From positions 1 to 45,589 of the forward strand of contig JAHHHZ010000007.1 of assembly GCA_019359095.1 (NCBI GenBank): a DNA stretch of 45,589 nt. The letters are read 5' to 3'. Shown here in pieces: positions 13,738-45,589 of the stretch. The notes beneath the pieces are model-generated. The model was not told the DNA's origin. It saw only the letters and a list, made by a program, of their open reading frames with translations, and made no database searches. The translations under genes and the position numbers were made by a program. Positions within the stretch are counted from its first letter, which is position 1; every line of letters starts with the position of its first letter. This DNA is from Pleurocapsa minor HA4230-MV1. Lineage in GTDB: Bacteria; Cyanobacteriota; Cyanobacteriia; Cyanobacteriales; Xenococcaceae.

Positions 13738-13739
13738 CG

Positions 13740-14084: not shown

Positions 14085-14107
14085 AAAAATTTTCCTATTA
14101 TCGTAAA

Positions 14108-16018: not shown

Positions 16019-16074
16019 CTTAATCACTTAATCACTTAATTGCTTAATTGGTTGTCTAGATAAGTGCTTAAGAG
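16019..16074. repeat. 8-bp phased repeat array 1 (3' of the ParB-like gene)
   Basis: Seven consecutive octamers begin at 16019: CTTAATCA twice, CTTAATTG twice, then GTTGTCTA, GATAAGTG and CTTAAGAG. The shared core is TTAA at positions 2-5 of each octamer. The array overlaps the last codons of the small partition gene. It is of the same type as arrays 2 and 3 and is probably bound by the same protein. Confidence 0.65.
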
Positions 16075-17480: not shown

Positions 17481-20400
17481 ATGCCTCAAGCTGGTGGAGA
17501 AGCAGATAAACTGGGTAATCGTTATGAAGCTCGCTGGACAATTCATTGCATGATTGATGTTATGGATGAACAAGCCGAGTCGATATACTTAGAACCTCCA
17601 GGAGAAGATGCTTTTGAATTCTTCATGTGGCGCAAAGGCAAGAAAGAGTATCATCAGGTTAAAAGGCAGAAAAGCAGCAGTGGTAACTGGTCATTAAAGT
17701 CTTTAGAAACAAATCAAATTAGCGTTCTTTCCGACTTTTGGGATTATCTTCAAAAACCAGATGTTACCTGTGTATTTATTTCGACCGAAAATGCCAAGGA
17801 GCTATACGAACTAGCTTACCGTGCTAAAAACTCCAACTCATTTACAGAATTTGAACGAAAAAGAATTAATGATATAGGTATCTCAACTAAATTTAAAGTC
17901 CTGCGTGAAAAATGGCAAAGTTGCTCTCCACAATCAGCATATGAAGCTTTAAGAAAAGTCAAAATTCAAACCGTTGGAGAAGATTTTTTAATTGATTCGA
18001 TTGAAAATCGTCTTACTACTCTAGTAGAAGAAGACCCCAAGACGATCAGAATTGAATTAGCTGAGTTGATACTTAATAGTACTCGTAAAGAGTTGAATAC
18101 ACATGATATCTGGCATTATCTAAGTCAAAGAGGATATCGTCGTCGCGAATGGGGAAAAGACACGCGTGTTTTAGCTACTGTTGAGAATACAAATCGTCGT
18201 TATATTAAAAGACTCAAAGATATTGAGATCGCAGACAATATAATTTCCCGTGATGAAACTCAAACTATTTTGTCTAAACTTCAGTCAAATACTGGAAAAA
18301 AGGCAGTATTAGTAACGGGAGAAGCTGGAATTGGTAAAAGTGTGATCATGCTTCAGGTTTTAAAAGCACTGATTGATCTAGGCATTCCTGTATTGTCAAT
18401 GCGTGTAGATAATCTTAAGCCAGTAGATCATTCTGATGATGTTGGTAAACAGTTAAAGTTACCTGGTTCTCCTACTAATGTCTTAGCCAGTATTGCTAAA
18501 GGTAGAGAATGCGTACTTGTAATAGATCAGTTGGATACAGTTAGTTTGGCTTCTGGTCGTCATCCAGATTTTTTTGAGTGCGTCAATGAAATAATTAGAC
18601 AGACTTTAGTTTATCCTAATATGGGTTTGTTGTTAGCCTGCCGTCAGTTCGATCTGGATAACGATTATAGATTAAAGAAATTAATTGACACTAAGGGTAT
18701 AGCTGAAACCTTCAATATCAATTATCTCAGTCATGACAAGGTTAGAGAAATAGTTGCTGAGTTGAATTTGGATGCTACAAAACTAAACTCACAACAACTA
18801 AATTTACTGTCTGTTCCCCTACATCTATGGTTATTATCGCAAATAGCTTCAGACTCAACTAGTAATTCACTTGAGTTTATTACTGCCAAAGATTTATACG
18901 ATCGCTTTTGGGATTATAAGCCCAGAAAACTAAATGCAAGGCTTGAACGTAAAATCGAATGGACAAAGATAATCGATCTTATTAGTGATCGCATGAGTGA
19001 AAAACAAAGTCTTTCTGTGTCAAAGGCAGTTGTAGATGATTATCAAGCAGATGCTGAAGCTATGGCATCAGAACATATTTTAGTTAAAGATAACAACCGT
19101 TATAGATTTTTTCATGACGGTTTCTTTGATTATGCTTTTGCCAGACGTTTTGCTGCTCGTGAAGAAGATATATTAACCCTTTTGTATAGCGATGAACAGC
19201 ATTTATTTCGCCGTACTCAAGTCAAGCAAATTTTAATTCATGAGAGAGAAAGCGATTTTGATTTCTATCTCGAACATCTTGAGGATTTATTAACCAGTAG
19301 TAATATTCGTTTTCATATCAAACAAATAATATTTGCTTGGCTAGGGACATTAAACAACCCCAAAGAAGAAGAATGGGAAATACTTCTCCCGATGCTTGAA
19401 GGTGATGGTAGTCTAAATCGTTCAGCTTGGTCAGCAATATGCACCTCTAGTAGTTGGTTCAAACTTTTAGCATCTTTAGGGCTAGTTACTCGATGGCTTA
19501 ATAGCGGTCAAATTAGAGATGTCAACCGAGCAACATATCTGTTGTGGAATGCTCAAAAAGAAACACCAGAAATAGTAGCCAACTTATTAAACCCCTTAAC
19601 CAATTCCTCAAAGAAAGGACAAGACTTAATTAATAAGATTATAGATTTTACTTATTTAGGTAATAATCGCCAAATTTTTGATTTATTTTTAAATTTACTC
19701 AATCAAAGCTATTATGATGGAAAAAAAGATATTTTTGACCATACTGGCTTAGATTTTTGGTCACAAATACATTCACTACCTAGAAACAATTCTGATTGGG
19801 CTTGCGAAGCAATAGGTCATTATTTAGATCGTTATTTGAATTTAAGTATCGCTATTGATCAAGACAACTTATTTGATTATAAAAATAGTATTTTTCCTCA
19901 CAGTCAAAGTGCAGAAAGCGTCATCCGAGCAAGTGCGAATAGATCTCCTCGCTCTTTTATAAAATACATTTTGCCTTTTGTCTTAAAACAAATAAAACTT
20001 ACAGTCGATTCTTCAAGTAGCAATCCACCGTGGAAAGATGATGTATGGCGTTACATAAAGTATGACAATTATTACGATTTTGAAGATATTTTATTAAACT
20101 GTCTTGAGAAAGCACTTCAAGATCTTGCTATTAAAGAACCGCAAGATTGTAAGGTAATTATTGAACAACAACTTAAGACAAACCAAGATTTTAAAACAAT
20201 TCAATTTCTTATAGTTCGTGCATATACAGCAAATGGAGCTTATTTTTATGAAGATGCAACTAACTTTCTTTGTCAATCTCCAAGTAGACTAAAAAATGGT
20301 TACGATATTAGTAATGGCAACATCCATGCTGCTCCATATTGGGCAACAGGCCAGCTTTTGATTAATATTATTCCTTATTGCTCTGCTTCAGATTTAAATA

Positions 20401-22391
20401 AACTAAAAAATACGTTATTTAATTATTATCCTGTCTGGAATAAGAGAAAGCAAGAAAGTATTCCTTTAACAACTTACTTACACGATTCTAATTTTTTCTA
20501 TATTCGAGTTCCAAAGCATTCAACACTCAAGCTATTTCCGCAAACTATAAATTTATTGTATTGGTTATCTTGCTCTCAATATCTTGGATTTCTAAAAAGA
20601 AGTGTGGAATATTCTTTACATTTACGAGGATATCCTCAATTTGTTTTAATTGACAGCTTTGTGATTGCAGCAGAATCGCAATTACAGATAATTGCCACTA
20701 AAATATTTACTTTAGCTTATTCTTCTAATACTCAATACCACAAAATAGCTTATTTAATTTTACTAAATAATATTCAGCTTTTTGCTTTTGATTCAACTAT
20801 TGCTCATCGCTGGAGTGAATGGCGACGTAAATTTAAGTCATTAAACCTATTAACAGAAGAACTAGATAATATTGAACCTCCTGAAGCAGTAGAAGCTTTC
20901 GTTGTTGGATCTCCAATTAGTCAAGACGTTACAAGCTATATGACTGATGAACAGTGGCTAAACGCAATAAATAAGTATAATGCTGATGGCATAAATTCTA
21001 GAAAAAGTGACTTAACTAAAGGCGGTGCATTAGAGTTATCAAGAAATCTGGAAAAATCTGCCGCCAAAGAACCTGTTCGATTTGCACACTTAATCTGGAA
21101 ACTATCAGATGATTGTCATACTTATTATTTCGACGCAATTTTAAATGGTTTGGCAAATTCAGAAATCAATATCCCGATTAAGTTTTGGAGTGTTCTGATT
21201 AATATAGATTGTTTAGCTGGTCTTTTATTTTTATATAGTTTCACCAATGTAGTGACTGCTTCTAGTGTTATCCGAAGATGTCATCAACTCCCTGACAAGC
21301 CTTGTGGACGAGCAATTAGCAATTTATGCCAAAAACTAGCTAGTCTGCCTTGGTCTATTGGGGCGATGAATATATTAATTTACTATGCCCTAAATGACTC
21401 CGATCCTGAAAAAGAATTCTGGCACAAGACAGAGCCAAACGATACCGTTTACTACGGTGGCGACATATTAACTGCTGGAATAAATTCGGTCAGAGGTTCT
21501 GCGGTAGAAGCGATCGCCAGTCTAATTTTTGCTGATAAAACTCGCGGTGCTTATTTTCAATATTCTTTAGAGAAAATAGTAAAAGATAAATCAATTGCTG
21601 TAAGAAGTTGTGCTGCTGAAGCTCTCACGGCAATGCTAAATTATGACCGTGATTTGGCTGTTCATTTGTTTTTAAAGCTCTGCGATACAGAAGATGTTTT
21701 GCTAGGAATACGTACAGTTGAAAGATTCTTGAGATACTCCACGTATACGCATTTTGAGATTTTAAAATTTCTTTTAGAAAAGATGATACGTTCAAAACAG
21801 CCTGACATAATTGAAGTCGGCTCAAGAATCTCTACAATGAGAGCTTTAGAAATGGATGAAGGTCAAGATCTCGCTCATTATTGTCTATCGGCAACCATCA
21901 CTCATCGAAAGGCTTTAGCTCAAGTTTTCGCAGCAAATTTTAAATCTGCGAACTTTCGTCAATATTGTGTAGATGGACTGATAAAACTATTTAGCGATCT
22001 CGAAGAAGATGTTCGCTCTCAAGCTGCCAGATGTTTTTATGAACTTGAAGCTGACGAACTAGAACTCTACGTAAACCTGATACAGAAATTTGTCAATAGT
22101 CCTGCATTTAACAATAATTCTGACGCTTTAATCCACGCACTAACCAAAACTACTGCTAAATTGCCTCAAGAAACATATTTAGTTTGCAATCGCTTTATAG
22201 AACACTTAAAGACCTTACCTACTGAACAACTGTACTATGTCAGGGATGGAGATCGAATTAGTCAACTGTTAATTAGACTATACAGCCAGCGAAATAAATT
22301 GATGAAATCGAAGTGTTTAAACCTAATCGACAGTCTCAGTGAGATGAACATTCATCAGTTAAATCAAGCAGTTAGTAATTATGAGAGATGA
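17481..22391 (+). CDS. STAND NTPase with Cap4-like nuclease domain (Avs-like)
   Basis: A 1636-aa three-part protein. Residues 1 to about 220 resemble the DUF4297/Cap4 PD-(D/E)XK nuclease: YEARW near 15, E42-D43 in PPGEDAFEFF, and Q59-V-K61 in EYHQVKRQ. Residues 250-560 are a STAND P-loop NTPase with Walker A GEAGIGKS (280-287) and Walker B LVIDQLD (D349, D352), followed by CRQFD and a helical winged-helix part (FFHDGFFDYAFARRFA). Residues 600-1636 are helical repeats, some clearly HEAT-like (AVRSCAAEALTAMLN; DVRSQAARCFYELEADE). In Avs proteins the repeats recognise a phage protein and trigger the nuclease. The subfamily is not certain. It stands alone on the plus strand between parA and the integrase. 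Confidence 0.82.
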   Translation: MPQAGGEADKLGNRYEARWTIHCMIDVMDEQAESIYLEPPGEDAFEFFMWRKGKKEYHQVKRQKSSSGNWSLKSLETNQISVLSDFWDYLQKPDVTCVFISTENAKELYELAYRAKNSNSFTEFERKRINDIGISTKFKVLREKWQSCSPQSAYEALRKVKIQTVGEDFLIDSIENRLTTLVEEDPKTIRIELAELILNSTRKELNTHDIWHYLSQRGYRRREWGKDTRVLATVENTNRRYIKRLKDIEIADNIISRDETQTILSKLQSNTGKKAVLVTGEAGIGKSVIMLQVLKALIDLGIPVLSMRVDNLKPVDHSDDVGKQLKLPGSPTNVLASIAKGRECVLVIDQLDTVSLASGRHPDFFECVNEIIRQTLVYPNMGLLLACRQFDLDNDYRLKKLIDTKGIAETFNINYLSHDKVREIVAELNLDATKLNSQQLNLLSVPLHLWLLSQIASDSTSNSLEFITAKDLYDRFWDYKPRKLNARLERKIEWTKIIDLISDRMSEKQSLSVSKAVVDDYQADAEAMASEHILVKDNNRYRFFHDGFFDYAFARRFAAREEDILTLLYSDEQHLFRRTQVKQILIHERESDFDFYLEHLEDLLTSSNIRFHIKQIIFAWLGTLNNPKEEEWEILLPMLEGDGSLNRSAWSAICTSSSWFKLLASLGLVTRWLNSGQIRDVNRATYLLWNAQKETPEIVANLLNPLTNSSKKGQDLINKIIDFTYLGNNRQIFDLFLNLLNQSYYDGKKDIFDHTGLDFWSQIHSLPRNNSDWACEAIGHYLDRYLNLSIAIDQDNLFDYKNSIFPHSQSAESVIRASANRSPRSFIKYILPFVLKQIKLTVDSSSSNPPWKDDVWRYIKYDNYYDFEDILLNCLEKALQDLAIKEPQDCKVIIEQQLKTNQDFKTIQFLIVRAYTANGAYFYEDATNFLCQSPSRLKNGYDISNGNIHAAPYWATGQLLINIIPYCSASDLNKLKNTLFNYYPVWNKRKQESIPLTTYLHDSNFFYIRVPKHSTLKLFPQTINLLYWLSCSQYLGFLKRSVEYSLHLRGYPQFVLIDSFVIAAESQLQIIATKIFTLAYSSNTQYHKIAYLILLNNIQLFAFDSTIAHRWSEWRRKFKSLNLLTEELDNIEPPEAVEAFVVGSPISQDVTSYMTDEQWLNAINKYNADGINSRKSDLTKGGALELSRNLEKSAAKEPVRFAHLIWKLSDDCHTYYFDAILNGLANSEINIPIKFWSVLINIDCLAGLLFLYSFTNVVTASSVIRRCHQLPDKPCGRAISNLCQKLASLPWSIGAMNILIYYALNDSDPEKEFWHKTEPNDTVYYGGDILTAGINSVRGSAVEAIASLIFADKTRGAYFQYSLEKIVKDKSIAVRSCAAEALTAMLNYDRDLAVHLFLKLCDTEDVLLGIRTVERFLRYSTYTHFEILKFLLEKMIRSKQPDIIEVGSRISTMRALEMDEGQDLAHYCLSATITHRKALAQVFAANFKSANFRQYCVDGLIKLFSDLEEDVRSQAARCFYELEADELELYVNLIQKFVNSPAFNNNSDALIHALTKTTAKLPQETYLVCNRFIEHLKTLPTEQLYYVRDGDRISQLLIRLYSQRNKLMKSKCLNLIDSLSEMNIHQLNQAVSNYER

Positions 22392-30012: not shown

Positions 30013-30564
30013 ATGCAAGCCAAGCTATTCCTATTTTATTTACGCTTCCGTAAGCCAATAATTATAATCTCTGCCCTATTAGCTGCTGCCATCATTGGCT
30101 TAGATAACTGGCAAAGATACAAATACAGAACAGCCGACTATACACCCTGGACTTTAGAAACAGTAAATAGTGGCTCAAGTTTTACTGTGACTCGTAATGA
30201 TGAAACTAAGATCATCAATTTATGTGGCGTAAATGCTTCTGGAGATAAAGCTAAGAACTATTTGCACTCAGTAATTAATCTTGGTAATGGCACAGTAGAG
30301 CTTGAGCAAGTTGGCGATCGCTATGAAGCTTGGATACTGCTAGACAAAAATTACGATGTTGAGTTAGTAAAACAAATTTCAGCTCGGCCTAACTATCTTA
30401 TTGAGCAGCAGATTCACTTGAATACTTGGGTTATAGAAAACGGTTATGCCAAACAAGATCGACAAAGTTCTCATACCTGTAGAAAACCAGAACATTTAAC
30501 TTGGGCAGAGAAGGTTGCTCAAGAAAATGGGTTGGGAATTTGGCAGGGCAAACAATCAAATTAG
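30013..30564 (+). CDS. Membrane-anchored SNase-like protein, probably inactive
   Basis: A 183-aa protein. Residues 13-31 form a transmembrane anchor (KPIIIISALLAAAIIGLDNW). The rest resembles the staphylococcal nuclease OB fold: SSFTVTRNDETKIINLCGVN is the strand-turn equivalent of the usual D-x-x-K-V-R-L-x-G-I-D, later VELEQVGDRYEAWILLD, and the C-terminal WVIENGYAK...WAEKVAQENGLGIWQG is typical of the family end. The arginine of the R-L-x-G-I-D motif is replaced (I-N-L-C-G-V-N) and the second catalytic arginine/glutamate pair is not recognisable. It is thus probably a non-catalytic SNase fold. Four bases past the stop a UvrD remnant begins on the other strand. Confidence 0.7.
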   Translation: MQAKLFLFYLRFRKPIIIISALLAAAIIGLDNWQRYKYRTADYTPWTLETVNSGSSFTVTRNDETKIINLCGVNASGDKAKNYLHSVINLGNGTVELEQVGDRYEAWILLDKNYDVELVKQISARPNYLIEQQIHLNTWVIENGYAKQDRQSSHTCRKPEHLTWAEKVAQENGLGIWQGKQSN

Positions 30565-30664
30565 GACGCTCAATTAATTTACTTGGCTGACCGTGATAAG
30601 TAACCAAAACTTCTTTTTTAGCGCGAGTAGCTGCAACGTAAAGCAAACAGCGATCGCTATTTAT
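30560..30664 (-). pseudogene. Remnant of a UvrD-type helicase, motif VI region
   Basis: On the minus strand the short frame SDRCLLYVAATRAKKEVLVT followed by YHGQPSKLIERP is unmistakably motif VI of a UvrD/PcrA helicase with its downstream strand. It is open only from about 30664 and runs into the antisense of the SNase-like gene. The GQPSKLI tail is of the type seen at the C-terminus of large UvrD proteins in loci like the one starting at 30749. It may therefore be the last piece of a second, inverted copy of that gene. Confidence 0.7.
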
Positions 30665-30748: not shown

Positions 30749-33634
30749 ATGGTTAACTCTGCTGTGCTTGCGCCAGGAGCTAGAATTGTTATACGCGATT
30801 CTGAATGGTTGATACGTAAAACTCTTAAAGCTTCAGCGGGAAGTAGAGTAGTCATAGAAGTCGTTGGTGTTAGTAATTTTATCAGACACGAAACAGCACA
30901 GTTTATAGCCGAGCTAGAAGAAGATTTAGTTGTCTTAGATCCCAAAGAAATAAAGTTAGTTGCTGATAATTCTTCTGGTTATTTAAAATCACTATTATTC
31001 ATTGAAGGTAATTTAAAACAGACTGCGCCTACTGACTCTAATCTCTACATTGGTCATAAGGCAGCGATGGATATTTTGCCTTTTCAGTTAGCTCCTAGTT
31101 TAAAAGCTTTAAAAATGCCTCGTCAACGGCTATTAATTGCCGATGCGGTTGGGCTTGGGAAGACTTTAGAAGCAGGTATTTTAGTCTCGGAATTAATTCG
31201 ACGGGGAAAAGGAAGACGTATTTTGGTGGTCACGACTAAAAGTATGTTGACCCAGTTTCAAAAGGAATTTTGGTCGCGGTTTACTATTCCTTTAGTACGT
31301 TTGGATTCAGTAGGTATTCAAAGAATTAGATCGCGTATTCCAACTAATCACAATCCTTTTAATTACTACGATAAGGCAATTGTTTCAGTAGATACTTTGA
31401 AACAGAATAGGGAGTATCGTACCTACATCGAAAACGCTTATTGGGATGTTATTGTTATTGATGAAGCGCATAATGTAGCGCGTCGGGGAAAAGGTCAAAG
31501 TACTTCTTTAAGGGCGAAATTAGCCGAAAGACTGGCTACTCGTTCTGATAGTTTAATTATGCTGTCGGCTACGCCTCATGATGGTCGAGCAGAAAGTTTT
31601 GCTAGCTTGATGAATATGCTCGATCCCACGGCGATCGCATCCGAGCAAGACTACAGTAAAAGCGAAATTCGCGATCTCTATGTCCGTCGTTTTAAAAAGG
31701 ATGTCAAGGATCAGTTAGCTAAGAATTTCCCCGAACGAAGCGCGATCGCAATTGCTGCCGATGCTTCTAGTTTAGAAGAGTCAGCTTTTGAAATACTAGA
31801 TAGTTTAAAACTCCTTTCGATTAATAAGAAGGGGAAAGCAGGGATGTTATTTAAGACAACTTTGTTGAAAGCAATGTTGTCTAGCCCGATGGCTTGCTTG
31901 GAGACAGTTGTTAAACGCATTAAGAAAGTAGAGAAAAACGGTGATTCGCTTACACAAGATAAAGATATTGCTGAGTTAGAAGAATTCAAGTCTGTCTTAG
32001 AAGAAATTACTGCTGCGGAGTTTTCTAAGTATCAACAGCTATTGTCTGTCATCAAAGGTAAAAGCAAAGATGAGTTTGCGTGGAAGGGGAAATACTCAAA
32101 AGACCGTATTGTTATCTTTACCGAGCGTTTGGAAACAATGCGCTTTTTGGCGAAGAATTTAGCTGAGGATTTGTCTCTTAGCAAAGAAGCGATCGCAACA
32201 TTAGATGGAAGTATGTCTGATGTAGATTTAATGGGCATCATCGAAGATTTTGGTAACGAAAAGTCTTCTTTAAGGTTATTGATTGCTACGGATGTAGCTT
32301 CAGAGGGAATCAACTTACATTACCTATCCCATCGCTTGATTCACTTTGATATTCCTTGGTCTTTGATGGCTTTACAGCAACGTAACGGGAGAATCGATCG
32401 TTATGGACAAGAGGAACAGCCACAAATTCGTTATTTGTTAACTCGTTCTAATAATTCTCGGATGGATGAGGTTGAGAGAATTATTCAGGTGCTATTAGTT
32501 AAAGACGAGCAAGCAGTTAAGAATATTGGCGATCCTTCAGTCTTTATGGGGGTGTTTGATGTTGATGAAGAAATAAGGATTGTCAGTAAAGCTATTGAGT
32601 CTGGGACATCGGCAGATGATTTTGCTAGTTCCCTCGAACCAAAACAGCTAGCAGATGATGATTTTGATTTCTTTGCTTTATTAGATGAGCCTGTTGTGGA
32701 GAAACAGGAAGAAGATGGCACAGAGACAAGGGAAGAGTCAGAGATTGGTGAAATGCCGAGCTTGTTTAAAGATGACTTTAGCTATGTCGTGGCTGCATTA
32801 GAGCAGTTTAAGCAGGAGCAAGACTTACAGTTATCTGTTCTCGAAGACGAACTCTTAATTGAGTTGACTATGCCGAAGGAGTTACGCGATCGCTATAAAC
32901 GCTTTCCTAGAGAGATTTTACCTGAGAAAAATGAACCTTTAAGGTTATCGGCAGATAAAAAAGCGATCGCGACTGACTTAGAAGAAGCCAGACGCGCTGA
33001 AGATAGTTGGTCTTCTTTGCAATATCTTTGGGAATTACACCCGATAGTTACTTGGCTCAATGATAGGGGAGTAACTTTATTTGGTCGCCATCAAGCACCA
33101 GTAATTACTTTAAGGGATAATTTAGCACCCCAAGAAGTTGTATTTATTATCTCTGGAGTAATTCCCAATCGTCGGGGACAACCGTTGATTAACAAGTGGT
33201 TGGGGGTAGTGTTTGAGAAAAATAAGTTTGTCAGAGTAGAAGAATTTACCGCCACACGCGATCGCTCCCTTTTAGGCAAAGAACCAATTCCCAATACCAA
33301 TCAAGAGGTAGACGAGTCTTTATTAGAACTGCGATCGCAAGCTGTAGAGGAAGCGACTAAAAATATCCTGGCAGCAGATAAAGAGTATAACGATTGCATT
33401 AATCCAAAGTTACAAGAACAATACGATCGCTTGGAAAAATGGCGAGGAAAGTCTTGTGAGCAGCTTGAACTGCCGACAGTTAATACATATAACATTGCCA
33501 AAAGTAAAAAAGAAAAAGAGCAAAATCGTATTCAACGTACTTTTGAAGATTATTGGAATTTTGTACAAGAAAGCACCACGACTGAAAAATCACCCTATAT
33601 CAAGATTGTCGCTGTTTTAAGAGGTAGTGGCTAA
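30749..33634 (+). CDS. SNF2-type helicase, DrmD-like
   Basis: A 961-aa SF2 ATPase. Motif I is GLGKT (135-139, LLIADAVGLGKTLEAGIL), DEAH is at 238-241, SATPHDGR follows at 273, and the helicase C domain has ASEGINLHYLSH and motif VI QQRNGRIDR (543-551). The following region to residue 700 is very acidic, and a C-terminal extension of about 250 residues is unlike chromatin-type SNF2 enzymes. This architecture is that of DrmD of DISARM class 1, which is thought to translocate on DNA. It opens the plus-strand operon; the upstream AT-rich gap (30665-30748, TATTTTATATAGATATTTAA) should hold the promoter. The next gene follows 52 bases later. Confidence 0.85.
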   Translation: MVNSAVLAPGARIVIRDSEWLIRKTLKASAGSRVVIEVVGVSNFIRHETAQFIAELEEDLVVLDPKEIKLVADNSSGYLKSLLFIEGNLKQTAPTDSNLYIGHKAAMDILPFQLAPSLKALKMPRQRLLIADAVGLGKTLEAGILVSELIRRGKGRRILVVTTKSMLTQFQKEFWSRFTIPLVRLDSVGIQRIRSRIPTNHNPFNYYDKAIVSVDTLKQNREYRTYIENAYWDVIVIDEAHNVARRGKGQSTSLRAKLAERLATRSDSLIMLSATPHDGRAESFASLMNMLDPTAIASEQDYSKSEIRDLYVRRFKKDVKDQLAKNFPERSAIAIAADASSLEESAFEILDSLKLLSINKKGKAGMLFKTTLLKAMLSSPMACLETVVKRIKKVEKNGDSLTQDKDIAELEEFKSVLEEITAAEFSKYQQLLSVIKGKSKDEFAWKGKYSKDRIVIFTERLETMRFLAKNLAEDLSLSKEAIATLDGSMSDVDLMGIIEDFGNEKSSLRLLIATDVASEGINLHYLSHRLIHFDIPWSLMALQQRNGRIDRYGQEEQPQIRYLLTRSNNSRMDEVERIIQVLLVKDEQAVKNIGDPSVFMGVFDVDEEIRIVSKAIESGTSADDFASSLEPKQLADDDFDFFALLDEPVVEKQEEDGTETREESEIGEMPSLFKDDFSYVVAALEQFKQEQDLQLSVLEDELLIELTMPKELRDRYKRFPREILPEKNEPLRLSADKKAIATDLEEARRAEDSWSSLQYLWELHPIVTWLNDRGVTLFGRHQAPVITLRDNLAPQEVVFIISGVIPNRRGQPLINKWLGVVFEKNKFVRVEEFTATRDRSLLGKEPIPNTNQEVDESLLELRSQAVEEATKNILAADKEYNDCINPKLQEQYDRLEKWRGKSCEQLELPTVNTYNIAKSKKEKEQNRIQRTFEDYWNFVQESTTTEKSPYIKIVAVLRGSG

Positions 33635-33636
33635 TA

Positions 33637-33686
33637 AGTAATTCCGAACTCGTTACTTATTACTTATTATTCATTACTTAAAAAGC
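33637..33686. repeat. Short heptamer tandem repeats before the methylase gene
   Basis: Between the two genes runs a series of ATTACTT-like heptamers, some degenerate (ATTATTC). A near-identical block precedes the fourth gene of the operon. Such short tandemly repeated heptamers are long known from cyanobacterial intergenic spaces. Confidence 0.6.
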
Positions 33687-36600
33687 ATGGCTGTTTTAAC
33701 TGGAATTATCAACGAGAATGAATTTTATTCCCACCATTATCTTGATGCTATTTTACATAACGATCTCAAAGAGGTTGTTAAACGCTGGAATGAAGAAGCA
33801 GAAACAACAGGAGATAAGTCCCCACCAAAAGCGATCGCATCTCTAAAAGTTGATTATTGTAAAACTCGCAGTCAGATTAGCCAGGAAAAAGACGTTCGAG
33901 AGCAATTATTGCTTCAAAGGCAATGGTTATGTAAGTTTTTCTCTGTACTGGGTTATGAGTTTAAACCGACGGAGAAAGTTGTAGAAGACGATGAAATAAT
34001 TCCTGTAGTTGCCGAGGTTAGTAAGAGTAACGGACAGCCTTTACTGTGGATTATTGAGGCTATTTCCGAGACAGAAGAAGCAGTTGATGTCTTATCTCTT
34101 AGCTTAAATGAAAATCAGTTTGAAAGCGATCGCTCAGAGCAACATCTAAATCCCGAACTACTCAACATTGACTTTGAAGACTTAATTTCTGACTATATTT
34201 TTGCTCAAGACGATCCGCCTCGTTGGATTATTTTGGCTGGTATGCACCAAGTAGTTTTGCTAGATCGCTTTAAGTGGAATGCTTCGCGGTTGTTGCGTTT
34301 TGACCTAGAGGAAATTCTTGCCCGTCTGGATAATAATGCCCTGCAAGCTAAGGCGATTTTACTCCATCGCGAACATACTTGTCCTAGTGAGGGAACAGCT
34401 TTACTAGATGAGTTGGATGAAAATTCTCACAAACACGCTTTTTCTGTCTCCGACGATCTTAAGTATGCGCTGCGGGAGTCGATTGAGTTATTAGGTAATG
34501 AGGCGGTTTGGTATAAGCAAAATAAGCTTCATGAAGGAGTATTCAAAGGAAAACTGGATGAAGGACAGCTAACTCTAGAATGCCTGCGGTATATGTATCG
34601 CCTGTTGTTTCTCTTTTACATCGAGGCGCGTCGAGAATTGGGTTATGCGCCGATGAATTCGGATATCTACCGTCAGGGGTATAGTTTAGAGTTTTTGCGT
34701 AATCTCGAACAAGCAGAGTTACGCACTACGGAAGATACGGAAGGCTATTTTATTGATGCTTCGATTACAAAGCTGTTTAAATTGGTTTGGGAGGGATTTC
34801 CTGAAGGTGATGAGAATTTTAGTCTTAATTTAGAGCAGAAAGAAATTACCCACGATACTTTTGAACTAAAAGCGTTGAAAAGTCATCTCTTCGATCCTGC
34901 GCGTTTATTTCTACTCAATAAAGTCAAGTTTCGTAACGTGGTTTTGCGTCGCGTAATTGAGTTAATGTCTCTTTCTAGAGCGAGTAAAGGTAAAAGAAGA
35001 GGGCGTATTTCATATGCCCAGTTGGGAATCAACCAATTAGGTGCGGTTTACGAAGCTTTACTCTGCTTTCGGGGGTTTTTCGCGGAAGAAGATTTGTATG
35101 AGGTTAAGTCAGCCAAAGAGAAGACTACTGATGAATTAAAGGTGGCTTATTTTGTTAAGTTACCAGATTTAGAAAACTATACCGAGGAGGAACGAGTTTT
35201 TAATGATGACGGTACGCCGAGATGTTATCCCAGGGGTACTTTTATCTATCGTTTAGCGGGACGAGATCGCCAAAACTCCGCTTCTTACTATACTCCCGAA
35301 TCTTTAACTCGTTGTTTGGTCAAATATTCCCTCAAGGAGTTACTCAAGGATAAAAAGGCTGATGATATTCTCAAGTTGCGTATTTGTGAGCCAGCAATGG
35401 GGAGTGCTGCGTTTTTGAATGAAGCGATTAACCAATTAGCCGAGGCTTATTTAGAATTCAAACAAAAAGAATTAGATCGACGTATCAAACAAGAAAATTA
35501 TCTGCAAGAAAAGCAGAAAGTCAAAATGCTGTTGGCGGATCGTAATGTGTTTGGCATTGACTTAAATCCCGTCGCGGTTGAGTTGGCGGAAGTATCTTTA
35601 TGGCTCAATTCTATTTATCAAGGGGCGCACGTACCTTGGTTTGGAATGCAGTTACACTGCGGTAATTCTTTAATTGGGGCGCGTCGTCAAGTTTACGACA
35701 CCAGTTTAGTTCCTCAAAGTAACAGACACAAAAACTACTGGTATGATAACGAACCCAAACGAGTTTTATTAACAGAAGAATTACCAGTTAAGACTATCTT
35801 TCATTTCCTGTTACCCGATCCAGGAATGGCTAACTATACCGACAAGGTAATCAAACAATTAGCACCAGACAATATCCAAAAGATTAAAGATTGGCAGAAG
35901 GAATTTTGCAGAGAAGCTTACAGTGAATTTGAAATCGAACAGTTAGTTAGCTTGAGCAAAAAGATCGATCAACTTTGGCAACGCCATGTCAAAGAACAGC
36001 GTAAGATGCGAAACCGCACCACCGATCCTTTATCTGTTTTTGGTCAGGAGGATGATGAGCTAAAACGTAGCAGCTTGAGCATGAAAGATAAGATTGTGGC
36101 TCAAGAAAGAATGTCCGAAGGTGTGGGTAATTCCAGTGCCTATCGGCGATTAAAACTGGTGATGGATTATTGGTGTGCTTTATGGTTTTGGCGCATCGAA
36201 CAAGCCGATTTATTACCTAGCCGTAGTGAATATTTGATGGAGCTTGCTGTCATTTTAGGAGAAATGCCCATCGCCCCTGAAAAACAGTTAGATATTCCTT
36301 TATTTCCTGAAACTACACCCCCAGAAGAAGCCAAAGAATTTATTGCTAAATATGGTTCGGTAGATTTAAAAATGCTTTGTAGTCGCTTTCCGCGATTGCA
36401 GTTAGTAGAAGAAATAGCCAAAGAAAAAAGATTCTTTCATTGGGAATTAGAATTTGCCGATATTTTTGCCGATAATAATGGCTTTGACTTTATTTTAGGT
36501 AATCCACCTTGGATAAAAGTTGAGTGGAAAGAAGGTGATGTTTTAGGTGATGCCGAACCTTTATTTGTATTACGAGGTTTTACTGCTAGTAAGCTAGGAA

Positions 36601-38450
36601 AATTAAGAGAAGAAACTTTGACTAAATATTCTCAATTAAAACCTGATTATTTTAATGTTTATGAAGGTTTAGAAGGTACGCAAAATTTTCTTAATGCTTT
36701 TCAAAACTATCCTTTATTGGTCGGTCAAAAAGCTAACTTGTATAAATGTTTTATTCCTCAAAGTTGGTCAAAGAGTCATAAAAAAGGGATACAAGCTTTC
36801 ATTCATCAAGAATCAATCTACGATGATCCAAAAGGTGGTATTTTTAGACAATCAATTTATCAACGCCTTAAAGCTCATTTTCAATTTATTAATGAGTTAC
36901 AACTTTTTCCAGACATCGATCATCACAATAAATATAGTATTAATGTTTATGGAGAAAAGTCGAAAACCGTATTTTTTAAAAACATATCTAATTTATTCTT
37001 AACTAAAACTATTGATGCTAGTTTTGAACATGATGGTAAGGGTAATGTTCCAGGAATAAAAGACGATGAAAATCAGTGGAATACAGATAATCATCTTAAA
37101 AGAATAATTGAGATCGACGAACAAAAACTAAAATTGTTTGCTCAACTTTATGATGGAGAAAATATACCTGCTTTACAAACTCGCCTTCCAGCACTTCATT
37201 CTCAACAATTATTAAGTGTATTAGAAAAATTTGCAATTCAACCTCAAAAATTAAGTCATTTAAAAGAGAACTACTTTAGTACATCTTGTTGGAATGAAGT
37301 GAATGCTCAAAATGATGGAATTATTAAGAGACAAACTTGTTTTCCTAGCTCAACAGAACAATTAATTCTTTCGGGTCCTCATTTTTATGTTGGTAATCCA
37401 CTGAACAAAACACCAAGAGAAGTTTGTACCGCAAATAGCCATTATAATGTTTTAGATTTAACAAGTATTTCCAATGAATATTTACCACGAACTAATTATT
37501 TTCTTGCTTGCACTAAGGAAGAATATCGAAGCAAAATACCTCTCGTTACGTGGGTTGAAACGACAACAAATCAATCCAAAAAGTTTACAGAGTATTATCG
37601 TTTAGCTTTTCGAGGGATGCTACCTCCTGGCAATGAAAGAACTTTAATCGGTTCAGTTATACCTAAAGGTGTGGCACACATTAATGGCTGTAGAAGTTAT
37701 GCTTTTGCCGATCAATATATTAATCAATTAACAATTTTTGGCTCTTTTACATATTCTATAGCTTATGACTTTTTAGTTAAAACGACAGGAAAAACAAATC
37801 TTCATCAAATACTAGATGATTTTCCATTAATTTACGGTACTTGTTTTGATAACAGTTTAAAAATCCGTTTCTTAACACTTTCTTGCCTAACCACTCACTA
37901 CGCTGAACTTTGGGAGACGAGCTACACCCCAGAATTCAATCAAGACACCTGGACAAAACAAGACCCCAGATTAAATAACCAATTCTTCCACAACCTAACC
38001 CCAAATTGGCAAAGAAACGTTGCCCTCCGCACTGACTACAAACGCCGACAGGCATTAGTAGAAATAGACGTACTCGCAGCAATGGCATTGGGTTTAACCC
38101 TAGACGAACTAATCACCATCTACCGCGTGCAATTCCCCGTGATGCGCCAATACGAAAAAGATACCTGGTACGACCAAAACGGGCGCATTGTCTTCACTTC
38201 TAGTAAAGGACTTCCAGGGGTAGGCTTCCTTCGTACTGCACCCAGAGGCGAAACGGGTTGGGAAGATATCAAAGATATGAAGACGGAAACGGTAGAACGC
38301 ACTATCGAAGATAACACCCTACCAGGAGGAACAGTTACCAGAACCATTGTTTATCAGGCCCCATTCGATCTTTGCAATCGCGAGGAAGATTACAAGATTG
38401 CTTGGTCAGCTTTTAAACAAAGATTCGCTAATCAGGAGGTTAAAGCATGA
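33687..38450 (+). CDS. Large N6-adenine methyltransferase, DrmMI/PglX-like
   Basis: A 1587-aa Eco57I-type methyltransferase. An N-terminal part of about 500 residues contains REHTCPSEG and long helices. It is followed by [20 protein letters not shown] (about 531-551), motif [10 protein letters not shown] (E568 to F576) and motif IV NPPW (N939-W942, [12 protein letters not shown]). A target-recognition-type C-terminal region follows (about 1000-1400). There is no visible nuclease motif, unlike true type IIG enzymes. It resembles DrmMI of DISARM and PglX of BREX, which mark host DNA. It lies between the SNF2 gene and the DUF1998 helicase, and its TGA overlaps the next ATG by four bases (ATGA). 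Confidence 0.9.
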
Positions 38451-41400
38451 TACCATCCGTTCTTGCCTCCGAAATTCAAGCCAGTATTACAGACTTCCTC
38501 AAGACCGAATTTCGCTCATCTTCTCCTGGTTTTGAGGATTTAATCGATCGCTTTTTGGCAGAACCAGAAGCCATCTTTAAAGGACCATATTTATCTACCA
38601 GTTTGCCTTTTAGATCGGGAACTGCGGGAGCTAACTATTTTCCCGACGTACCGATGGCTTTTCCTCCCCACCGACATCAAGAGCAGGCGTTCGGGCGACT
38701 GCAACACCCTAACTATCAGTCAACTATTGTCGCTACTGGGACGGGTTCGGGTAAAACTGAATGTTTTATGCTGCCTATCCTCGATCATTGTTTTAAATAT
38801 CGAGGCGAACCAGGTATCAAAGCAATCCTAGTCTATCCGATGAATGCTTTGGCTACCGACCAAGCAAAAAGATTAGCGCAGCTAATTTGGCACAATTCTA
38901 ACCTTAAAGGTTATGTTACGGCGGGTTTATTTGTGGGGGAAAACGAACGCGAACCTACTTCAGTAATGACAGAAACGGGAGTAATTACCAGTAAAGATAT
39001 TCTGCGCCAACGTCCCCCAGATATCTTGTTAACCAACTATAAAATGTTGGATTATCTGTTAATTCGTCCCAAAGACCGGGGTTTATGGGTGGGTAATAGT
39101 CCCGAAACTCTGCGTTATTTAGTTGTAGATGAAATCCATACCTTTGATGGCGCACAGGGAACGGATTTAGCCTGTTTGATTCGTCGTCTCAAGGCTCGTT
39201 TGCAAACACCCGCGAATTATTTGGCTTGTGTGGGAACTTCAGCAACTTTAGGCGGAAATAAAGACACGGGGAATGAATTAATAAGCTATGCGGGAAAGAT
39301 ATTTAATGAGACATTCAATAATAACTCTATCGTTACCGAAGATAGGTTAAGTGCAGCAGAGTTTTTAGCCGATGCCTTTATCGATCCTCAACCAGTACCC
39401 AGTCCAGATTTACTAGACTCGTTACTACCGCAAAACTATGAGAGCGTAGAGAAGTATATCCGCGCTCAATATCAACTCTGGTTTAATTATCCCCTAGAAG
39501 ATGATTGGGATGAAACAGACTGGCGCATCGATTTAGGCGATCGCTTGAAGTCTCTTCCCATCGTTCATAACCTGCTAAAAATCCTTTCAGGCAAACCAAC
39601 TTCCTTGCCTTCTCTATGGACGCAATTGAGTCGTAAAATGCGTCTGCCAAATAGTACGGATACAACCTATCAAATTGCTTTATTTACTAGCCTAGCTGCT
39701 TTATTTTCCATTGCACGAGACATCAATAACCGTCCTTGGGCTAATATTCGTATACAGCTATGGCTGAGAGAATTACGGCGTATGGTAGCTGATATAAGCG
39801 ATCGCCCTGCACTAACTTTTGCTGACGATCTGACTACGGAAGAATCGGGGAAAAGCTTACCTGTAATTCACTGTCGTGAATGTGGGGCTACTGGTTGGGG
39901 AAGCTTACGGCGCAAACAAAATGACCAACAGCTAGATTGCGATCTCAGAGCTTTTTATACGGCATTTTTTAATCGTAATCCTTTAACTGCTTTTGTTTTT
40001 CCCATTAAAGACAATGAAAAATACGAAACGGACATCTCACTGGGGCGAGGCAACCTCGCCCCCCGTGTCCTTGAGAAAGAAAGAATTGAAAGCAAGCTAT
40101 GCCAGGACTGCTTGAGGTTAAATATTTCCAAAGCTACTTACTGTCATACCTGTAATGGGAAAAACTTACTTTCGGTTATCGAACCGAATATGGTGCAAGA
40201 GAAGAGTAAAAACGGCTCTAAATGGCGAGAAACCAGTCATGATTGCCCCTTCTGTAAGGCTAAGAATAATCTAGCTATCTTGGGTTCTCGTGCTGCTAGT
40301 TTGGCTAGTGCTGCTATTGGTACGCTGTTTGCTTCTACCTATAACGACGATCGCAAATTAATTACCTTTTCCGACTCCGTACAGGATGCTGCCCATCGCG
40401 CTGGTTTCTTTGCTGCCCGTACTTTTAGGACTACTTTACGTACCGCTATCAAACAGTATTTGGATGAACGGGGTAATGACAAATACTTAGAGCAAATTAT
40501 TCCCGAATTTAAACAATATTGGCAAGAAAAACTAGGTTCGGATACTGATTATGTAGCTACCTTTCTGCCTTCAGATTTGGAATGGCTGTATGAATGGGAA
40601 CAGTTACAGAAGACAGGTAAATGTAGTTCCCAGTTAAAAGAATATTGCGATCGCCGTTTGGACTGGGAAATTATCTCAGAACTCAGTCTTAAAACTTCTT
40701 TTGGCGGTTCATTAGAACAGACAGGGACTTGTGCAGTAGGGCTTAATCTCGAACAGTTAGACAAAGCTACAGCAGAAGTATTAATTAAGCTGCAAAACGA
40801 ACTGGGACTGCATCATATAAACAATGACAGGGTAAAACAGTTTATCTTGGGCATTTTTTATCATATGAGACAAAAAGGAGCAATCTTACATCCTCTTACC
40901 AAACAATACATCGAACAGGATGGCAATATTTTCCTCTTGCAAAAACCTACTTTTATGCCCAACATGGGACCCGCTTCGATTAAACCTAGCTATCCCATAG
41001 AAGCGAGAAACCACGAGGAATTTGAACCAGTTATTATCAAAAACTCTACGTGGTGGGAAAATTGGGCAGTTAAAAACTTCTTTGACACTCAGGATTATAA
41101 CTTCTTTGACACCCAGGATTATTCTTTAATTGGCGCACAGACACCCGCTATTTATCAATATACTTTCAATACTCTAGTTGAGTTTGGTCTTTTAGGCGAT
41201 CGCTATACCAATAAAAACGCTAAAGTCTGGGGAATCGAAACTACAGCTTTAAATCTTGATACAGACACTAAGCATTTATCTTGTTCTAGCTGTCATCACT
41301 CTGTTGTCACTGACAATAGCGAACTATCCTATTGGAATGGAATGTCCTGTTTACAATCGCAGTGCTTAGGACATTATGAGGAAAGAACAGCAAAATTAAA

Positions 41401-44400
41401 CTTCTACAAAAATCTCTACTCTAAAGGTAATGTACGACGTATCTTTGCCCAAGAACATACGGGACTATTAGAAAGAGAAGTCAGAGAAGAACTAGAACGT
41501 CGCTTTATTGCCAGTCAACATCGTTCTGACCCCAATTTACTCTCTGCCACTTCTACCTTGGAAATGGGGATTGATATCGGAGATTTATCCTCAGTCTTAC
41601 TCTGTTCCATTCCTCCCCAACAGGCAAACTATCAGCAAAGAATCGGACGGGCGGGAAGAAGAGACGGTAATGCCTTTATCACTACCATTGCTAACGGTAC
41701 AAATCATGACCTCTATTTCTGGTCTAATCCTCTAAAAATGATTGCGGGAGGAGTAGAAACCCCAGGTTGTTATCTTGATGCTTCGGCAATTCTCCAACGT
41801 CAGTTAACCGCTTACTGTCTTGACTGTTGGATCGGTGATTCGAGCAAAACCCCAGATTTACCAGAAATCTTTAATCGAGTTCTAGCACCAGTACAGCAGG
41901 GGGACATTAACCGCTTTCCCTATACTTGGTTAAACTATATCGATCGCGATCGAGAACAACTATTATCTGGCTTTATTCGGCTATTTGATGCAGAAATAGA
42001 TAAAGATACCAAAGAACAACTAGAACTTTTCATTACTCAGGGAGAGCAAGAAAAAGGCGGTTTGCGGTGGCGTATCCTCAATCGACTACAGGAAGTAGTT
42101 GAGGAACGGAAAAGACTGCAAAATCAAATCAAAACCCTTGGTCGTCGCATCAAAGATAAAGAAAAAGGTGCTAAATCGCAAAACTTTGAGGCTGAATTAG
42201 ATGAATTAAAGCTAGAAAGAAAAGGCTTTATGAAATTAGTAGAGCTTATCAACAAAAAAAATACTCTTAACTTCTTCACCGACGAGGGTTTACTACCTAA
42301 CTATGCTTTCCCCGAAGCTGGCGTAACCCTCAAATCGATCATCTGGCGCAGAAGTAACCAGCCCAATAATAAATACGAAACCCGCCCCTTTGAATACGAA
42401 CGTCCAGGGGCATTAGCTATCAAAGAACTCGTTCCCTCCAGTACCTTTTATGCTGAAGGTCGTAAGGTTAGAGTAGACCAGATAGACGTAAAACTGTCTG
42501 AAATAGAAGAATGGCGTTTTTGTCGTAACTGTAGCTATGCTACTCTCAATATCCATAAAACAGCAGACCAAAAAACCTGTCCGCGCTGTGGAGATACCAT
42601 GTGGGCTGACGAAGGGCGTAAACGCAAAATGATTCGTCTGCGTCAGGTAATGGCAACTACAGGCGATCGCAAAAGTCGGATTGGAGATGACCGAGACGAT
42701 CGCAATCCTTCATTTTTTAGCAATCAGCTACTAGCTGATTTTGCCCCCGAAGCCAGAGAAAAGTCTTATCTAATTGACTCAGAAGAATTTCCCTTTGGCT
42801 TTGAATTCCTCTCGCGGGTTAACTTCCGTGAAATCAATTTTGGTCAAATCACCAATCAAGCTGAAACAGTAGAAATAGCAGGTGAAGCTCGTCCGAGGGG
42901 CGGGTTTAAAATCTGTCGTGAGTGTGGCAAAGTTCAAGATAGGGAAGATCAAGCCAATCATACTCTAGCTTGTAAGAAAGACGATAACCCGAAAAACTTT
43001 ATTGATGTCCTGTATCTATTCAGACAGTTTGAATCAGAAGCAATTCGCATTCTAATGCCCGTCGATACCATCAATTCTTCTCAACAGTTACCCTCATTCC
43101 TAGCTGCTTTACATCTAGGACTAAAACTACACTTCCAGGGCAAAGTAGACCATCTTCGTACTTTAGTCAGTGAAGAACCCGTTGCTAATAGTTCCCGCAG
43201 AAAACCCTTCCTTTTCCTCTACGATACCGTTCCTGGGGGGACTGGCTATCTCAAGCAGCTACTTCGTAATCCTCAAGAAATAATATCAGTTTTAGAAAAA
43301 GCTTTAGCTGTTCTGGTTAGCTGTAGTTGTGATGATGGTTGCTATGAATGCGTTTACGCCTATCGTAACAACTTCGAGCAGGACAATACTAGTCGTAAAA
43401 GCGCGATCGCCGTTTTAAATGACATTATCACCCGCAAAGATAAAATTACTCTATCTCAGCCTGGATTATCAGAAGTAAAGCTAAATGCCTTATTTGATAG
43501 CGTTTTAGAACAACGTTTCATTGATGCCTTAGCTCGTTATCGCCATGAGGATAAACCAACTACTTTGCGTAAAGAAGTAATCAACGGCAAACCTGGTTAT
43601 TTGCTTTCTATCGGCGAACAAACCTGGCAAATCGAACCCCAGGTAGAACTAGGACAAAATGATGGAATAGCTATTCCCAGTCGCGCTGACTTCGTATTCT
43701 ATCCTGCCAAAGAATCTCTAGATATCAAACCCATTGTTGTCTTTACCGATGGTTGGGAATATCATCGCGATCGCTTATCACACGACTTTCAACAAAGAAT
43801 GGCGATCGCTAAAAGCGGAAATTTTCATGTTTGGTCGCTTACTTGGTCTGATGTTGAATCTCAGTTTAATTCCCAATCAGGTGCTTACGTCAATCTCCTA
43901 ACTCAAGATATCAGTAGCTTGTTTCGTACCAATCAAAATAAACTTCACGAACAATATAAGTGCGAACAATTACGCCCCTTAAAAGACAAAGATAGTTTTA
44001 CATGGTTGGTTAACTTTCTCAAGCTACCCGATCGCAATCTATGGCAACGTTGGGCATTACTCAGAACCCTGGCATACATCAATCCTCAAGCACAGTGCGA
44101 TCGTAACCTTTGGGAACAAGAAGTCAGTCAATTAACAGATTCTAAGATAATTAATACATTCGACCTAAACACTTCCTGCCGTTTGGCAAATTTGAGCTGG
44201 AAGTCGATACAGCAAAATGACTTAATTCAATCTTATTTTGCGATCGCACCACCAAAGCATAAATCTTCTGATAGTAAAGGTTCGTTAGTAGTTATGTCGA
44301 TCGGCGATCGCTTTGCAGAAATCGATGATGAAATAGTTAAAGCTTGGACTGGAATATTACGGCAATACAACCTATTCCAGTTTCTCGACTACAGCTATGT

Positions 44401-44782
44401 AGTTACTTCTCGCAGTTTTGAAACCGAAACAGAACTTGAACCATTATTACTTTCACCGCCAATAGATAAAGAAACTTTTGCCAGTAATAGCAATCCAATT
44501 TGGCAAGAAATTAAAGAATTAGTCTTTGATGAAGATGCGATCGCCCTAATCGACTATATGTCAACTCATAACTGGCAAGTACCCGAAGTCGGTTACGAAC
44601 TTACCGACGATACCGATACCGTAATTGCTGAAGCAGAATTAGCCTGGAGTGAGCGCAATTTAGCCTTAGTCATAGACACCAGCGAAACCGAAATCTTTAC
44701 CCAGAATCAATGGAAAACTTTCACTATAGCCGAAGTATTGAATGACCCAGAAGCTTTTTACAATGACCATCTAACTTCCTAA
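38447..44782 (+). CDS. Giant DEAD helicase with DUF1998 and C-terminal nuclease fold
   Basis: A 2111-aa protein. Motif I TGTGSGKT is at 97-104, DEIH at 228-231, SAT at 265-267, and motif [11 protein letters not shown] at 1063-1071, an Lhr/MrfA-type helicase. Several zinc-knuckle pairs interrupt it ([32 protein letters not shown]). A coiled coil lies near 1210-1265. The DUF1998 region contains [14 protein letters not shown] (from 1592) and the cysteine cluster C1626, C1628, C1632, C1635. Beyond it, ADFVF (D1748) and TDGWEYH (D1768-H1773) resemble a Vsr-like endonuclease fold. The helicase-DUF1998 arrangement recalls DruE of Druantia or a fusion of DISARM DrmA and DrmB. ATGA overlap with the methylase gene. 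Confidence 0.87.
41075..41122 (+). repeat. 24-bp in-frame tandem duplication
   Basis: Two adjacent 24-base units, 41075-41098 and 41099-41122, differ at one base (T or C) and encode NFFDTQDY twice (residues 877-892 of the giant helicase). The near-identity points to a recent slippage duplication in a loop that tolerates length change. Confidence 0.9.
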
Positions 44783-44832
44783 ACATAAACAAAAAAACTT
44801 ATTACTTATTACTCATTACTTATTACTTAAAA
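44783..44832. repeat. Short heptamer tandem repeats before the RelE-UvrD gene
   Basis: The gap consists mainly of TTACTTA/ACTTATT heptamers (ACTTATT, ACTCATT, ACTTATT), very like the block at 33637-33686. They separate two genes of one operon and probably have no promoter of their own. Confidence 0.6.
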
Positions 44833-45589
44833 ATGCTAAATCACAATATCCGCATGGCGATCGCCGCCGACTTTTTAGATGCTTTTAGCAAGCTACCCAG
44901 ACAGACTCAAGCTAAAACCAATTCCTTTATTAGTAAATTCAAGCAAAATCCTACTAGCTCAGGGATTAACTACGAATCAATTCATAATGCTACTGATAAA
45001 AACCTCAAATCCGTCAGAGTTGATGGCAGCTATCGAGCGATCGTGCTTAAACCCGAAACTGGTAATACCTATTTACTATTATGGGTGGATAATCACGACG
45101 AAGCATACCAATGGGCGCAAAGAAGAGTTTGTAAAATTAATCCCGAATCTGGTGCATTACAAATTATTGATGTCGAAGAAGTAGCAGCAATTGAGCGAGA
45201 AATAGCAGCAGACTCTAAAGCATCCAGACAAAAAAGATTTGCCGATATTCGCGATCGTCACCTATTAAGATTGGGAGTTCCAGAAGAATTATTACCAGCA
45301 GTTCGGGCTGTCGTTACGGATGATGATGTCGATAAATTAATCTCTAAACTACCAGAAGAGGCTGCCGATGCTATTTTACTACTTGCTGCTGGTTATTCAC
45401 TTGACGACGTTCTAAAGCTACAAGATAAGCAGAGCGATAAGCCTGACGGCATGGCTTCGCTACTCCAAATTAATACAGAAGACTTTGATACTGCCTTGGA
45501 AACCGATGACAGTAAGCGCAGATTCTATATTGTTGAAGATGATGCCGAACTGGAAGAAATGCTGGCAGCGCCTCTCGAAAAATGGCGTG
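44833..45589 (+). CDS. UvrD-type helicase with RelE-like N-terminus, cut by window end
   Basis: The frame from ATG 44833 is open to the last base, 252 codons. Residues 1-105 look like a RelE-fold domain: ADFLDAFSKLPRQTQAKTNS, GINYESIHNA, NLKSVRVDGSYRAIVLKP and LLLWVDNHDEAYQWAQRR. A linker with RFADIRDRHLLRLGVPEELL and EEAADAILLLAAGYSLDDVL follows. This start is familiar from large UvrD/REP-type helicases where a RelE-like domain precedes the motor, but the helicase motifs lie outside the window. The RelE-like part may be a nucleic-acid-binding rather than a toxic domain. It is the fourth gene of the operon, 50 bases after the DUF1998 helicase. Confidence 0.75.
   Translation, partial: MLNHNIRMAIAADFLDAFSKLPRQTQAKTNSFISKFKQNPTSSGINYESIHNATDKNLKSVRVDGSYRAIVLKPETGNTYLLLWVDNHDEAYQWAQRRVCKINPESGALQIIDVEEVAAIEREIAADSKASRQKRFADIRDRHLLRLGVPEELLPAVRAVVTDDDVDKLISKLPEEAADAILLLAAGYSLDDVLKLQDKQSDKPDGMASLLQINTEDFDTALETDDSKRRFYIVEDDAELEEMLAAPLEKWR

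Follow-up and report, generated by a model that had tools for sequence, protein, structure and literature searches.

What kind of system is encoded by the four-gene helicase-methylase operon that closes contig JAHHHZ010000007.1 of Pleurocapsa minor HA4230-MV1 (assembly GCA_019359095.1), and has it been described before? A sequence-only reading of this stretch (the window, which is the entire contig, C7, of 45,589 bases) had recognized an SNF2-type helicase, an adenine methylase, a DEAD helicase with a DUF1998-type module and a 'RelE-like/UvrD-type start', all on one strand with a 4-bp overlap and short gaps. It proposed either a distinct anti-phage system or an unnamed branch of DISARM. Family searches agree with the description of the first three genes, and full-length relatives of the fourth fit its description as well. 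The coordinates of the open reading frames (ORFs) confirm the compact arrangement, with a 52-nt gap between genes one and two, a 4-nt overlap between two and three (38447-38450) and a 50-nt gap between three and four. The proposal of novelty fared differently. On sequence comparison we are about 97% confident in identifying it as an anti-phage operon of ARMADA Type II in a cyanobacterial host. The system is already named (Bell et al. 2025 preprint, PMC12458937), and what is new here is the host, not the system.

Assignment of the operon to ARMADA Type II

According to the main text of the preprint, Type II consists of ArmA (BrxHII/RapA-like), ArmB (PglX-like), ArmC (a YprA/DruE-like helicase with a fused nuclease) and ArmD (RelE-like plus GajB/UvrD), the tested strains being E. 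coli NCTC 12900 and ATCC 8739. Defence in E. coli is reported there to be non-abortive and to require all four genes; the helicase motifs and the NPPW motif of ArmB are essential, and two further motifs are partly needed (PMC12458937). The window holds the helicase, methylase and YprA-like helicase genes in the Type II order A-B-C, followed by a 252-aa ArmD fragment, which aligns with the full-length ArmD of relatives and is truncated by the assembly, since the window is the whole contig. We located the operon of E. coli ATCC 8739 (L062; ArmC WP_000937965.1), whose proteins align with ArmA-ArmC of the window and whose ArmD aligns with the full ArmD of a relative.

The placement of ArmC agrees with this correspondence. 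In a tree of 100 rows the window sequence lies inside a 91-row clade together with ATCC 8739 ArmC (support 100), and seven Type-I-like rows and DruE fall outside it; DruE contributes two identical rows, long branches lead to DruE and to a single actinobacterial row, DrmA was left out, and 'Type-I-like' is a label derived from gene content and the tree rather than from the reference sequences of PMC12458937. A tree of 24 rows under a mixture model grouped the window with ATCC 8739 again, with support 100. All eight residues reported as mutated in the preprint are conserved, namely K138 and D238 of ArmA, G572 and N939 of ArmB and K103 and D228 of ArmC in the window, and the two ArmD residues in a single relative (G003), with the numbering mapped through the ATCC 8739 proteins and not those of NCTC 12900.

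The operon shares with the E. coli Type II systems the four genes, their order, domains and functional motifs and the ArmC clade with ATCC 8739. It differs in its cyanobacterial host, in an ArmC only 39% identical to that of ATCC 8739, in the presence of two diverged copies in one genome and in the truncation of ArmD at the contig end. Profile searches alone leave the system unnamed, because the best matches are DrmD for ArmA, a Type IIG family for ArmB and DruE for ArmC; no ARMADA model is among the matches listed from PADLOC 2023 (up to 25 per protein) or NCBIfam 2026. The sequence-only reading had named the assignment of all four genes to one known system as the outcome that would speak against it. 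The preprint provides this assignment gene for gene, though not via profile matches, and reports activity in E. coli (PMC12458937).

Could the operon nevertheless be a branch of DISARM? ArmA is an SNF2/RapA-like helicase (Walker A K138 and Walker B D238 by motif mapping), 66% and 57% identical to its counterparts in the plasmid loci L058 and L059. Its best matches are to DrmD (344.6 bits in PADLOC, 354.2 bits in NCBIfam), with a profile labelled DrmA next (243.2 bits), while ArmB has a secondary match to DrmMI (192.1 bits), and the preprint text itself terms ARMADA DISARM-related (PMC12458937). These likenesses are outweighed, and we consider a DISARM branch very improbable: ArmA stays under the curated DrmD cut-off (354 versus 610), as does ATCC 8739 ArmA (347.8), and the highest DrmA score in the 25 matches listed for ArmC is 60.6 bits, versus 378.5 bits on DruE, its best PADLOC match. 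DrmA and DrmB do not occur as separate genes, and PLD families were absent both from the window ORFs of at least 150 aa scanned against Pfam (21 of 23) and from seven scanned proteins of contig C1, whose link to the window is unproven. A DrmD-like helicase and a PglX-like methylase are shared with DISARM class 1, whereas here the helicase and the DUF1998-type module reside in one protein, a predicted nuclease is fused to it and ArmD is added. The earlier suggestion that DrmA and DrmB functions are united in one protein stands as far as the fusion of a helicase core with a DUF1998-type module in ArmC is concerned. Its report of a missing DrmC likewise holds among the ORFs scanned, and the absence is probably explained by the predicted nuclease fused to ArmC; the UvrD-type protein it had added to the operon is ArmD.

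ArmC contains DEAD helicase, Helicase_C and MrfA Zn-binding domains, with Walker A K103 and Walker B D228. In its predicted nuclease domain D1748, D1768, G1769, H1773, D1780, R1784 and D1802 are identical in all 91 of the 91 aligned ArmC rows, and AlphaFold2 models the predicted domain with a predicted local distance difference test score (pLDDT) of 88.5. A fold search with this region gave weak matches to the PD-(D/E)XK enzymes BsoBI and TnsA, and the C-terminal alignment, run as a profile against PDB, retrieved an engineered protein only (E 0.00026). The preprint text predicts a Vsr-type nuclease (PMC12458937); Vsr is not listed among our fold matches.

A giant DruE-like helicase with an MrfA Zn-binding domain is also what ArmC has in common with Druantia, and this likeness is the case for regarding the operon as a form of that system. 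We give this even less credence than a DISARM branch. No other Dru protein is among the PADLOC matches listed for the 10 of 23 window ORFs scanned, ArmC and ATCC 8739 DruE stand apart in both trees (DruE as a single long branch), and the partner genes here are ArmA, ArmB and ArmD, whereas Druantia III DruE carries C-terminal PLD nuclease domains and has different partners. Profile scores, partners and ArmC trees together uphold the earlier statement that the operon fits neither DISARM nor Druantia.

Two further assignments were weighed and not adopted. ArmB shares with BREX a C-terminal fold like that of PglX/BrxX, and ArmA matches the BrxHI/BrxHII helicase profile (209.5 bits). On PglX in NCBIfam, however, ArmB scores 31 bits versus a cut-off of 900 and 25.5 versus 500, no PglZ or BrxC is among the matches listed for the four operon proteins, and a BrxHII-like ArmA is a shared, non-core part. 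ArmB is also longer (1587 aa versus 1225 aa in Salmonella PglX) and has two separately exchanged segments. As for Hma, the HmaA match of ArmA (198.3 bits) lies below its DrmD match, and neither HmaB nor HmaC is among the matches listed for genes two and three (the best 25 of 29 and the best 25 of 35).

The ArmD fragment matched no Pfam family up to E 0.001. UvrD-helicase and UvrD_C domains are present in its full-length relatives, of 706 and 709 aa, for which GajB is the best PADLOC profile. Used as a profile against PDB, the fragment with 38 relatives weakly matched 1wmi (E 0.024), which we take to be an archaeal RelE, and 9 of the 39 members weakly matched a ParE-like family (best E 0.00066). 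Such an N-terminus, together with the RNase toxin domain predicted in the preprint text (PMC12458937), might mean that the RelE-like domain is an RNase toxin rendering the system abortive in this host. We regard this as improbable, given that E. coli ARMADA is reported to be non-abortive (PMC12458937) and that the 52- and 50-nt gaps in the operon are too small for an antitoxin gene.

ARMADA Type I has ArmA-, ArmB- and ArmC-like genes in common with Type II, and Type-I-like rows form a separate ArmC clade in our trees. ArmD is named for Type II only in the main text of PMC12458937. An ArmD-like gene is present in four of the seven cyanobacterial Type-I-like loci read, an addition not found in that text: in L150 (1423-16030), L153 (2136-12241), L152 (1707-9635) and L149 (3855-11379), all ARMADA-I-like loci of related cyanobacteria, ArmC is immediately preceded by a RelE-UvrD gene, 23-26% identical to ArmD. 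Only L150 shows A-B-D-C in full; ArmB is partial in L153, the upstream sequence of L152 is short, and L149 has no ArmA or ArmB within the stretch fetched.

Recurrence of the gene order and a second copy

Does the gene order recur in unrelated bacteria? A scan of named genomes returned at least 584 confirmed relatives, of which the best 80 were kept, so that the sample leans to close relatives; even so, the hosts belong to many bacterial phyla. All four genes occur in 38 of these 80 loci, invariably as A-B-C-D, which answers the question in the affirmative; the count required ArmA and ArmB upstream and ArmD downstream on the same strand, and an unconditioned best-hit listing gives the same 38. 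Downstream of ArmC, 71 of the 80 loci have ArmD; among the 68 loci offering 1.2 kb or more on that side the figure is 66. Upstream, ArmB was found in 57 loci, 56 of them among the 74 whose flank reaches 0.6 kb or more, and ArmA in 42, all of these among the 54 with 6.5 kb or more. Within one species, 518 of the 5426 complete E. coli genomes searched contain a 3.9-kb part of E. coli ArmC.

Several observations weigh against a strict layout. More than 400 nt separate ArmB from ArmC in 29 of the 57 loci with ArmB. ArmB was not found in 18 loci with room for it, including L121, L133 and L146 with about 10 kb upstream, ArmA was not found within the flank of 12 loci with room, and L087 and L121 are without ArmD. 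A Cylindrospermopsis plasmid outside the 80 is ordered C-D-A-B. Two relatives (G020 and G004) have a small ORF between ArmB and ArmC; it is not present in the window, where these genes overlap.

Another contig of the same genome, C4, begins with the same operon on the opposite strand (L005 1-14781), its ArmC and ArmA being 87% and its ArmB 80% identical to those of the window. This second diverged copy is likewise an addition not found in the main text of PMC12458937. After a shared run of 127 identical nucleotides, contigs C7 and C4 break off at one and the same position within ArmD, a pattern suggestive of a k-mer break at a repeat. ArmD residues 596-704 start contig C1, and residues 245-595 have no near counterpart in the assembly beyond a distantly related UvrD helicase (29%). 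Because of the shared break and the coverage of ArmD residues in the assembly, the genome likely contains two full ArmD genes. The ArmD 3' end on C1 (L046 1-1496) directly precedes a tyrosine integrase gene. Two other assemblies also appear twice in the scan of relatives (L102/L120 and L078/L123).

ArmB segments and a possible mode of action

How might ARMADA distinguish phage DNA from that of its host? ArmB is an Eco57I/N6-type adenine methylase with G572 in its S-adenosylmethionine (SAM) motif and N939 in NPPW. Its best match is a Type IIG enzyme family (946 bits), and its identity to the ArmB proteins of E. coli plasmids is about 48%. The predicted fold of its C-terminal part matches M.BseCI, CamA and BrxX/PglX; no PDB sequence was retrieved by profile searches with the C-terminal alignment (up to E 0.1) or with full ArmB (up to E 0.001). 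PglX is described as both methylase and specificity factor in BREX (PMC11341690).

The two ArmB copies of the window genome are 57.2% identical inside aa 1000-1430 and 89.0% outside, and those of Nostoc linckia and Nostoc sp. FACHB-973 are 52.0% and 92.2% identical; at the sequence level these cyanobacterial comparisons show divergence, not exchange. Enterobacterial operons were compared in 14 loci taken from a spread listing, not at random (12 Escherichia, Mangrovibacter and Enterobacter; L170 was dropped because its ArmB is annotated as frameshifted). Two segments, at about aa 1081-1280 and 1361-1480 of ATCC 8739 ArmB, fall into 6 and 8 classes at 80% identity and form 12 combinations among the 14 loci. 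They lie in a region predicted to fold much like the recognition parts of DNA methylases. Among the 12 Escherichia sequences, mean pairwise identity in 40-aa bins is 34-87% within aa 1081-1480 and 92-100% outside, and it amounts to 99.3% for ArmC (66 pairs, 12 rows) and 99.5% for ArmD (55 pairs, 11 rows). Nucleotide comparison covered 12 chosen pairs, with segment borders set after viewing the profiles. For ATCC 8739 and E1V33, identity is 100% in segment 2 but 57.0% in segment 1, and 2018-02-2CC and 13C1065T show 100% and 63.4%; for ATCC 8739 and RCS32TR557_p it is segment 1 that is alike (97.2%), with 50.4% in segment 2. Since such pairs are identical or nearly so in one segment and diverged in the other, exchange rather than mere fast change is indicated, and on these comparisons the two segments are exchanged independently among enterobacterial operons. 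This exchange, too, is an addition not found in the main text of PMC12458937. Cassette swapping in ArmB suggests how ARMADA may tell its own DNA from that of phages, and the two ArmB copies of the window genome may read different sites. Published O145:H28 methylomes (PMC3893438), weighed as a test of ArmB methylation, decide nothing; ArmB and ArmC are annotated as broken in the one O145 relative examined, L175.

We favour, with some reserve, a BREX-like, modification-gated and non-abortive attack on unmodified DNA. ArmB would use its exchangeable recognition region to read a short DNA site and would methylate an adenine there in the host genome; defence would depend on this recognition too, in the manner of PglX/BrxX in BREX. 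Unmodified phage DNA would be engaged by the superfamily 2 (SF2) motors ArmA and ArmC through translocation and unwinding, and damaged by the nuclease fused to ArmC, with ArmD (a UvrD-like motor with a RelE-like domain) presumably required; phage replication would be halted and the host not killed. Methylation, the site, the self/non-self role, the order of the steps and the role of the RelE-like domain are what we infer here. What our data show is that the operon matches ARMADA Type II gene by gene and in its motifs, that ArmC takes the corresponding place in the trees, that nuclease-like residues are invariant and that cassettes are exchanged in enterobacterial ArmB.

The main rival, modelled on a proposal for Druantia III DruE (PMC13192584), supposes that ARMADA senses DNA structure, such as replication intermediates that are single-stranded or carry a 3' tail, methylation by ArmB being secondary to target choice. 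That DruE is the best PADLOC match of ArmC suits this rival, as does the partial activity reported for the ArmB SAM-motif mutant; yet the NPPW mutant lost protection (PMC12458937, main text), and independent exchange of ArmB segments is hard to explain if site recognition is irrelevant. We consider structure sensing possible but doubtful.

A fuller version of the modification-gated attack would have the target set by two independently exchangeable ArmB cassettes, the cyanobacterium keeping two operons of different specificity, and the ArmD genes sharing a near-identical stretch through recombination; to this combination we assign even odds. The words 'methylation' and 'TRD' are absent from the main text of PMC12458937. 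The parts worth following are the cassette exchange and the duplicated operon. The former offers a handle on how ARMADA separates phage from own DNA, as laboratory strains whose operons have a single cassette changed would be expected to show a predictable partial change of the methylation motif and to block other phages; the duplicated operons could be a naturally occurring instance of one cell with two specificities.

Layout of the locus and neighbouring genes

Table 1. Features of the ARMADA operon and its upstream border in the window.
Feature	Position	Strand	Remarks
ArmA ORF	30749..33634	+	961 aa; BrxHII/DrmD/RapA-like SNF2 helicase
ArmB ORF	33687..38450	+	1587 aa; PglX-like adenine methylase
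ArmB hypervariable segment 1	36831..37407	+	about aa 1049-1241; mapped from ATCC 8739 ArmB; proposed specificity cassette
ArmB hypervariable segment 2	37650..38016	+	about aa 1322-1444; mapped from ATCC 8739 ArmB; proposed specificity cassette
ArmC ORF	38447..44782	+	2111 aa; YprA/DruE-like helicase, MrfA Zn-binding domain, C-terminal nuclease region
ArmC predicted PD-(D/E)XK nuclease domain	43481..43858	+	invariant residues, AlphaFold2 model
ArmD fragment	44833..45589 (ORF 44833-45588)	+	first 252 aa; RelE/ParE-like domain and start of GajB/UvrD helicase
Inverted ArmD 3' end remnant, 88 nt	30570..30657	-	98.9% identical to contig C1; just upstream of ArmA

The cyanobacterial origin of the window is evident from its HIP1 sites, a cyanobacterial hallmark, of which there are 36 versus 0.27 expected, and contig C4 of the same genome bears a photosynthetic reaction-centre gene.

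An SNase-domain gene upstream of the operon (30013-30564) was weighed as a fifth component and is taken as a neighbour, because no homologue turned up in the other loci when these were searched with tblastn (E up to 0.001). One SNase homologue lies upstream of the second operon copy and a third on contig C4 (L006 about 15863-16333), and the alphaproteobacterial locus L068 has an annotated thermonuclease gene near ArmA on the other strand. Flanking repeats are not a general feature, being found in 1 of 34 loci tested: a 30-nt perfect inverted repeat flanks the ARMADA operon of Cyanocohniella sp. LLY (L070).

Elsewhere in the window, Type I restriction-modification genes HsdR, HsdS and HsdM occupy 7153-15936 on the minus strand, where HsdS and HsdM are separated by a gene for a TnpB-like transposase (12232-13428). 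On the plus strand, 17481-22391 encodes a 1636-aa protein with weak matches to STAND-NTPase, HEAT-repeat and PDC-M54A (a candidate defence family), and 1647-2111 encodes a protein with a RES domain, a family known for toxin-antitoxin toxins.

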